DNA from: Agromyces bauzanensis
Lineage (GTDB): Bacteria > Actinomycetota > Actinomycetes > Actinomycetales > Microbacteriaceae
Assembly: GCF_014645655.1 (NCBI RefSeq)
Contig: NZ_BMMD01000007.1
Span: forward strand, 1 to 64,000
DNA: 64,000 nt
Direction of reading: 5' to 3'
How positions within the stretch are numbered: position 1 is the first letter of the stretch; the number at the start of each line of letters is the position of its first letter. Position numbers and translations under genes: made by a program. The notes beneath the pieces are model-generated. The model was not told the DNA's origin and ran no database searches. It saw only the letters and a program-made list of their open reading frames with translations. Below are positions 34,592 to 37,995 of the stretch, piece after piece.

Positions 34592-35884
34592 ATGTCTGCG
34601 CCGGAGCGGCATCCGCAGTGGGGCGACGCGAGCTCGCTGCGCGACCGCCTGCTGCGCGCCCAGCAGGACGCCATCGAGACGGGCGAGGTGCCGCTCAGCC
34701 TGCGCCCGGTGGTGCGCGCCTCGTGGGAGCGCGCCATCCGCGGTGCGATCGACCCCGACCGCGCGCTGCCGCGCATCGAACTCGACGAGCACGAGTTCCG
34801 CGAGTACCGCGCGACGCACGCCCTGACCCCGGTGATGCCGGTCATCCGTCGTCTGCTCGTCGACGGCGCGGATGACGCGGGCCTCGTCGTCGCCGTCGGC
34901 GACGCGCACGGGCGACTGCTCTGGGTGGAGGGCGACCCGGGACTCCGCCGGCGCGCCGAGGACATGCTCTTCATCGCGGGCGCCGACTGGTCGGAGGCGA
35001 GCATCGGCACGAGCGCGCCCGGCACCGCGCTCGAGCTCGGCCGCGCCGTGCAGATCCGGGGCGCCGAGCACTACAACCGCATCGTGCACCCGTGGAGCTG
35101 CACCGCCGCCCCCGTGCACGACCCTGCCACCGGCGCGATCCTCGGCGTCATCGACATCACGGGCACCGACCTCGCCGTCGCCCCGCACACCATGTCGCTC
35201 GTCTCGGCGACGGTCGCCGCGGTGGAGGCCGAACTTCGTATCGCGAACCTCGAATCCGCGGTGCGCGCGACGATCCGCCGGTCGCACATCCGGGCCGTCG
35301 CCCCCGTGCGCACGTCGCTCACGGTGCTCGGCGAACGCCGGCCGCGCCTCGGTGAGCAGGAGCTCAGCCCGCGGCACGCCGAGATTCTCACGCTCCTCGC
35401 ATGGCATCGGCGCGGCATCGGGGCCGAGCGGCTCGCGGCGCTCCTCCACGAGGGCGACGTGTCGCCCGTCACGCTCCGCGCCGAAGTCGTGCGCCTGCGT
35501 CGCCTGCTCGAGGCCGCGGGGGAGCCGCAGCTCGAGTCGCGCCCGTACCGCCTCGGTCGCGAGGTCGATCTCGACGCGGCATCCGTCGCCCGGCTCCTCG
35601 GGCAGGGATCGCTGCGACGCGCCGCCGAGCGCTACCCGGGTCCCGTGCTGCCCTCATCGACCGCGCCCGGCATCGTCGAGATCCGCGAGGAGCTCGCCGG
35701 CCGGATTCGCGAGTCGATGTTGTCGGATGCCCCGCCCGACCTGCTGCTCGAGTTCGCCGAGCGGGACGAGCACCGCTACGACGTCGTGCTGTGGCGGGCG
35801 CTCCTCGAGATCCTGCCGCCGCGTTCGCCGCGACGGGCGTCGGTCGTGGCGCACCTGGAGCGCATCGAGTCCGCGCTGCGCTGA
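34592..35884 (+). CDS. GAF-domain transcriptional regulator of the aldehyde dehydrogenase next door
   Basis: A 430-residue regulator. The N-terminal region ([31 protein letters not shown]) and the GAF sensor (about 80-220, with [20 protein letters not shown] and [15 protein letters not shown]) match AcoR-type activators, but there is no AAA+ domain; a C-terminal winged-helix-like DNA-binding part ([28 protein letters not shown]) follows. GAF regulator, aldehyde dehydrogenase and DUF779 form a recurrent actinobacterial trio. Promoter TATACT at 34550-34555; ATG 34592 has GGAG 6 nt upstream. It probably binds the phased GCAAC repeats at 35903-35940. Confidence 0.88.
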
Positions 35885-35902
35885 GCCGACGCATCCGTGA
35901 CT

Positions 35903-35940
35903 GCAACCTGACTGCAACCCCCGGGCAACGGGTACGCAAC
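35903..35940. promoter_or_regulatory. Four direct GCAAC repeats spaced exactly 11 bp, probable operator
   Basis: GCAAC starts at 35903, 35914, 35925 and 35936, so each copy is one helical turn from the next. They lie between the GAF regulator and the aldehyde dehydrogenase gene, 80 bases before its ATG. Same-face repeats fit cooperative binding by an oligomeric activator, most simply the GAF regulator. Confidence 0.6.
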
Positions 35941-36021
35941 GGCTCCCCGCCTACCGTGATGATCACCCCGCACTGCGCCTGCGGTGCGGGGACCCAGACA
36001 ACGACGTCACGAGGAGACACG

Positions 36022-37545
<1,524 letters not shown>

Positions 37546-37557
37546 TCGGAGGATGTC

Positions 37558-37995
37558 ATGTCGATCGGATTCACCGACGGCCGGGTGGTCGCATCGGTCA
37601 CGGTGGCGGGGGAGGCCTCGCCGCGCGTGGAGCTCTCACCCGCGGCGGGCGCCCTGCTCGCACGGCTCTGGGCCCAGCACGGGCCGCTCATGTTCCACCA
37701 GTCGGGCGGATGCTGCGACGGCAGCGCTCCCATGTGCTACCCCGCGGGCGACTTCGTCACGAGCGATGCCGACGTGCTGCTCGGCGAGCTCGACCTCGGG
37801 CCGGATGCCTCGGGGGAGCCCCGGATCGCGCCGTTCTGGATGTCGGCGGAGCAATTCGCCTACTGGCGGCACACCTACCTCACCGTCGACGTCGTGCCGG
37901 GGCGGGGGAGCGGCTTCTCGGTCGAGGCGCCGGAGGGCGTGCGGTTCCTCATCCGGTCGCGGCTCATGGAGCCGACGGGGGCCCGCCTCACGTGA
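37558..37995 (+). CDS. DUF779 family protein
   Basis: A 145-residue cytoplasmic protein starting 13 nt after the aldehyde dehydrogenase. It has the DUF779 core FHQSGGCCDGSAPMCYPAGD with a conserved Cys-Cys and third Cys, and WRHTYLTVDVVPGRGSGFS. DUF779 genes consistently accompany this type of aldehyde dehydrogenase, so it may be an accessory or electron/cysteine-handling partner; its biochemistry is not established. RBS GGAGG lies 5-9 nt upstream. Confidence 0.9.
   Translation: MSIGFTDGRVVASVTVAGEASPRVELSPAAGALLARLWAQHGPLMFHQSGGCCDGSAPMCYPAGDFVTSDADVLLGELDLGPDASGEPRIAPFWMSAEQFAYWRHTYLTVDVVPGRGSGFSVEAPEGVRFLIRSRLMEPTGARLT

Follow-up and report, generated by a model that had tools for sequence, protein, structure and literature searches.

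This locus raises the question of which protein reads a run of four GCAAC pentamers lying between a regulator gene and an aldehyde dehydrogenase gene of Agromyces bauzanensis, in a stretch of 64,000 nucleotides analysed as a whole (hereafter, the window). Our answer, which we consider very likely, is that the regulator whose gene lies upstream, a one-component GAF-SARP activator, uses the array as its operator; its protomers would bind side by side and replace a missing −35 element. The four direct repeats described in the earlier note are present as described on the forward strand, with consecutive starts 11, 11 and 11 bp apart, and they do sit in the 137 bp that separate the two genes (Table 1).

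Table 1. Features of the locus, with positions in the window.
Feature	Position	Strand	Basis
GAF-SARP regulator gene (430 aa; P0003)	34592..35884	+	ORF and translation, partial DhaR match, AlphaFold2 model, structure matches
GCAAC copy 1 (most upstream)	35903..35907	+	read from sequence
GCAAC copy 2	35914..35918	+	read from sequence
GCAAC copy 3 (first repeat of the conserved two-copy core)	35925..35929	+	sequence
GCAAC copy 4 (second repeat of that core; the −10 hexamer follows after 11 nt)	35936..35940	+	
Predicted −10 element TACCGT	35952..35957	+	N11 after the last GCAAC, as in relatives
Hairpin in the predicted mRNA leader (CCCCGCACTGC/GCGGTGCGGGG)	35966..35991	+	inverted repeat, predicted fold
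ExaC-type acetaldehyde dehydrogenase gene (507 aa)	36022..37545	+	NCBIfam NF050026, Pfam Aldedh
DUF779 gene	37558..37995	+	Pfam DUF779, E = 1.4e-44

The pentamer alone is no more common in the window than in shuffled sequences (83 matches on both strands vs. a mean of 90.4). None of 2000 simulated stretches of 137 bp and none of 6 simulated 64-kb sequences, all drawn from a first-order Markov model of the window, contained the same pentamer four times in a row at one fixed period of 6-20 bp; the longest constant-period run in the simulations was three, vs. four in the real window, and an origin of the array by chance was rejected because a run of four is absent from all simulations. Within the 3.72 Mb searched of the same genome, the three-copy pattern, with one mismatch tolerated, matches at the array alone (the reversed control gave 1 match), and only one site carries the strict two-copy core that is shared with relatives (GCAAC-N5/6-GCAAC-N11-TANNNT, with variable spacers). 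No Rfam element was found around the array at E <= 1 (positions 35800-36100 searched).

Downstream of the array, the hexamer 17 bp upstream of the predicted −10 element is CGGGTA and does not resemble a −35 element. The dehydrogenase scores 928 bits against the NCBIfam model of acetaldehyde dehydrogenase ExaC (cut-off 900); the DUF779 gene starts 12 bp past its stop codon, and the two genes are probably carried on one transcript. At the start of the predicted leader, a hairpin is predicted in most Agromyces relatives too, with different letters (by eye). A separate leader element, GACRAYGNNGTC, at 35997-36008, near the ribosome-binding site and 13 nt before the ATG, recurs in 74 of 166 upstream regions and, by eye, also at a few places where the regulator is missing.

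The earlier note took the neighbouring regulator for a GAF protein without an AAA+ domain. The latter part agrees with our searches, which found no AAA+ domain in the window regulator (Pfam, E <= 0.1) or among the families of 23 aligned members; the view of a GAF-only protein has to be revised, because the C-terminal half is predicted to fold like a SARP module. In the window regulator Pfam reported no family at E <= 0.1, and a receiver domain was found neither there nor among the 23 members, for which 15 families were listed and of which 21/23 match GAF and 7/23 match Trans_reg_C (Pfam, E <= 1). The match to the NCBIfam DhaR model is partial (E = 2.5e-16, 59 bits, cut-off 551). In the AlphaFold2 model (mean pLDDT 90.1; pTM 0.53, too low to fix how the two halves lie relative to each other) a DhaR-type GAF half at the N-terminus is predicted to be followed by a winged helix and a BTA-like helical domain at the C-terminus. 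Residues 37-234 align with E. coli DhaR(N) (4lrx_C: Z 25.0, 195 residues, 1.8 Å). Residues 239-430 align with the AfsR SARP module (8k60_I: Z 13.4, 188 residues, 3.8 Å), again with AfsR (8hvr_I, Z 13.3) and with EmbR (2ff4_A, Z 12.8), values to be read with the tool's warning that in this half-helical segment a Z up to about 13 may reflect a mere common arrangement, and with its caution that the structure-comparison list barely tests residues outside 68-221. Foldseek placed DhaR, AfsR and EmbR chains at ranks first to fifth for the whole model (8hvr_I, E = 2.3e-5). By sequence, phmmer found no SARP for the C-terminal half, and a profile search with the regulator gave weak PhoB matches (E = 0.0034); PhoB as the closest relative was rejected, because these sequence matches are weak and the fold match reaches over the BTA domain. 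The modelled order of an OmpR-type winged helix and then a BTA helical domain is that of a SARP. Strong matches to the regulator (E <= 1e-50) are found in 95 of the 249 genomes of the window's family, and at looser thresholds, which also admit matches to the GAF half only, in 123/248 genomes of the order and 103/246 of the class.

Among 60 Agromyces genomes, the regulator is found in 31 at E <= 0.001 (29 strong and 2 weak GAF matches) and the dehydrogenase in 28 at E <= 1e-180. The exact three-copy pattern occurs in 22 of the 60, all 22 of which encode the regulator (reversed control: 1 match). Across 29 Agromyces loci the number of GCAAC copies is four in 21, three in 2 and two in 5, and the four-copy loci are spaced 11-11-11 in 20 cases and 11-10-11 in one; the spacer letters vary among loci. 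By eye, the third of four copies is damaged at one locus (L022), and another (L008) carries, besides four copies at 11 bp, seven further GCAAC at 17-bp steps, a tandem amplification.

For relatives at large, the earlier note had suggested a comparison for GCAAC-N6 arrays. The repeats are indeed kept, the unit being two copies at 10 or 11 bp instead of four. Leaving out regions fetched by the motif itself, 127 of 140 distinct dehydrogenase upstream regions carry the strict core, with a repeat spacing of 11 bp in 89 and 10 bp in 38; the distance from the last GCAAC to TANNNT, for which 10-12 was allowed, is N11 in 126/127. (The wider set of 166 upstream regions, 153 of them strict, includes some fetched via the motif.) By eye, most of the 13 regions lacking the strict core differ from it by one base, space the repeats more widely or have just one GCAAC. 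At class level, 41 loci were sampled (L186-L226), of which 11 have no dehydrogenase in range; of the other 30, 25 have the strict motif and five do not (L186, L187, L188, L192 and L224). Among species whose regulators share about 69-85% identity with that of the window, the 6-bp spacers vary whereas GCAAC persists, and the core is kept in relatives with regulators at about 40-57% identity. In six operators (L064, L068, L069, L119, L132 and L133) the spacer is GTTGC, so that GCAACGTTGC reads as a perfect palindrome inside the direct repeat.

We compared the presence of the strict motif (N10-12 allowed) to that of the regulator at all 102 dehydrogenase places (E <= 1e-200) in 98 of the 249 family genomes, a tally that joins 46 places (31 strict) and 56 places (56 strict). 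Where the regulator is present (E <= 1e-50), the strict motif occurs at 87/92 places; where it was not found, that is, with none among at most 7 candidates scored per genome, it occurs at 0/10 places, which belong to six genera and include four genomes of one genus with weak GAF matches (E of 1e-12 to 1e-29). Fisher's test gives p = 1.4e-10, treating relatives as independent and ignoring shared ancestry. Of the five exceptions among the 92, two deviate by a single mismatch (G110, G179), one lies at the start of a contig (G229:C95) and two are second copies that have diverged (G078:C3, G148:C16). Places with and without the regulator also contrast cleanly within two genera (g21: G079 and G158 vs. 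G218 and G267; g84: G142 vs. G204). The motif stays at the dehydrogenase promoter where the regulator is distant or downstream (G062, G078, G163 and G151); in G062 and G078 the motif-bearing dehydrogenase gene lies kilobases from it. A blind search for the core in the 249 family genomes returned 59 sites in 55 genomes, vs. 6 sites in 5 genomes for the reversed control, and the regulator is encoded in 53 of the 55. Conservation in orthologous promoters, on which the earlier note had let its proposal stand or fall, was thus looked for and found, and the array tracks the GAF regulator; both support that note's reading of the array as the regulator's operator for the dehydrogenase. Judged by these sequence comparisons, the array is very probably an ancestral and widely conserved operator.

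Of the 59 blind sites, 49 lie in front of the dehydrogenase gene and 8 in front of an AdhP-like gene; the remaining 2 fall within long reading frames of genomes that lack the regulator, as expected by chance. The putative AdhP-type targets occur in 8/249 family genomes, with the site just before a zinc alcohol dehydrogenase gene; the eight proteins match one AdhP protein at 73-100% identity, and this reference protein, the one of the eight so named, scores 370.5 bits against NCBIfam AdhP (cut-off 344). From these two kinds of target, alcohol and aldehyde oxidation is the likely regulon. For Agromyces itself, AdhP was rejected as a target, since no GCAAC pair was found within 300 nt upstream of AdhP-like genes at 8 loci in Agromyces genomes and the genome of the window has no AdhP match at E <= 1e-80. 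In another family of the class, 15 of 22 genomes carry the core, with one site each (reversed control: 0). There, 13 of the 15 sites (L323-L335; similarly L193, L195, L200, L205 and L206) are followed by an almost invariant stretch that has a predicted 13-bp stem (CGACCGGGCGGGC / GCCCGCCCGGTCG) and lies near no reading frame with an obvious start; at L206 a methyltransferase-like frame follows the stretch (by eye). It has no Rfam match, and covariation says nothing because the stem hardly varies in 11 aligned sequences. The stretch may be a small RNA or leader driven by the GAF-SARP regulator.

How the regulator might act is suggested by the SARP AfsR. PMC10936776 describes SARP targets as direct repeats spaced by 11 or 22 bp, of which the 3' one lies 8 bp from the −10 element; AfsR binds as two protomers side by side on two 11-bp repeats (−40 to −19) and contacts the first 8 bp of each, and sigma region 4 rests on the protomers rather than in the −35 groove. 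The window has the same layout, with repeats at 11 bp just upstream of the −10 element (N11 to TACCGT), and the 10-bp class of relatives (38/127) departs from the rule as given there. If the −10 hexamer is taken to span −12 to −7, the two GCAAC of the core fall at −39/−35 and −28/−24, inside both stretches that AfsR contacts according to that text. From this AfsR-like register and the lack of a −35 element, we infer that the regulator activates as AfsR does. Its SARP module (winged helix and BTA) would bind head to tail on neighbouring GCAAC, one per helical turn, and sit directly upstream of the −10 element; as there is no usable −35, sigma region 4 would dock on the regulator instead, and the aldehyde dehydrogenase-DUF779 operon would thereby be activated. 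The ligand of the GAF domain is presumably a small molecule of the pathway (aldehyde, alcohol or a derivative). In most Agromyces, the two further copies would extend the site upstream for a second pair of protomers and tune occupancy. The filament-like binding envisaged in the earlier note goes beyond these results: the nearest precedent (PMC10936776) is the side-by-side dimer on two repeats, which by analogy suggests at most two adjacent dimers on the four copies.

The same protein could instead repress, covering the promoter until aldehyde or alcohol releases it. The repeats overlap the −35 position, where a repressor would also block; yet CGGGTA at 17 bp leaves unaided RNA polymerase no recognisable −35, and the site has the register of an activator, AfsR. 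Repression is therefore improbable, and we give even less weight to a different DNA-binding protein that recognises GCAAC while the neighbouring regulator is a mere genomic companion. Binding of GCAAC by the regulator is deduced from sequence and a model, and in Agromyces regulator and dehydrogenase occur almost one to one (29 strong vs. 28 matches in 60 genomes), so that neighbourhood could explain part of the link. This does not account for the absence of the motif from every one of the 10 dehydrogenase places where no regulator match was found, for the contrasts within g21 and g84, or for the persistence of the motif where the regulator is distant. That the repeats are a tandem array born of slippage and devoid of function can practically be dismissed: slippage does occur here, as the amplification at L008 indicates, but conservation of GCAAC amid differing spacers, and of the core in far more divergent relatives, led us to reject it as the sole explanation. 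Activation by the GAF-SARP regulator remains the reading that we prefer.

SARPs are known mainly as activators of antibiotic pathways. That the class binds 11-bp direct repeats is known already (PMC10936776), whereas titles and abstract openings in the literature searched, which lacks most subscription journals, describe neither this GAF-SARP regulator nor the GCAAC motif. New, if sequence and model are read correctly, would be SARP-type activation coupled to a GAF sensor, the GCAAC code, the tie to primary metabolism and a lineage-specific doubling of the site. Taken further, and as a tentative proposal that we think somewhat less likely to hold than to fail, the regulators would form an undescribed, class-wide branch of GAF-sensing SARPs that controls primary aldehyde and alcohol oxidation via one GCAAC code, whose strength evolves by whole helical turns (from two copies to four in Agromyces, where two adjacent SARP dimers would act together), and whose code possibly drives a small RNA in one other family. 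The locus offers an operator that can be put to the test directly, for a regulator family that is common; it would connect SARPs, by way of a likely one-component sensor, with the housekeeping oxidation of aldehydes and alcohols, and natural promoters that carry two, three or four sites provide a gauge of site number vs. cooperativity.

Compared with known systems, the regulator resembles AfsR and other Streptomyces SARPs in the predicted winged helix and BTA fold of its C-terminal half, and its promoter resembles theirs (PMC10936776) in having 11-bp direct repeats close to the −10 element and a poor or missing −35. It differs in the sensor, a DhaR-type GAF half at the N-terminus vs. the C-terminal NOD and TPR domains of AfsR, and in the GCAAC repeat, the aldehyde and alcohol oxidation target, the additional 10-bp spacing and the four copies in the window. 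EmbR of Mycobacterium tuberculosis shares the predicted C-terminal fold (2ff4_A) and carries a C-terminal FHA domain (PMC10936776) in contrast to the N-terminal GAF of our regulator. Response regulators of the PhoB/OmpR type have a receiver domain where the regulator has its GAF half. Activators of the DhaR/AcoR type, AcoR being the regulator of a related dehydrogenase, are similar in the N-terminal half, which aligns with 4lrx_C and covers part of the DhaR model, but they possess a central AAA+ domain, none of which was found in the regulator, and they act at sigma-54 promoters with −24/−12 elements, whereas the window has TANNNT at a fixed distance from the repeats.
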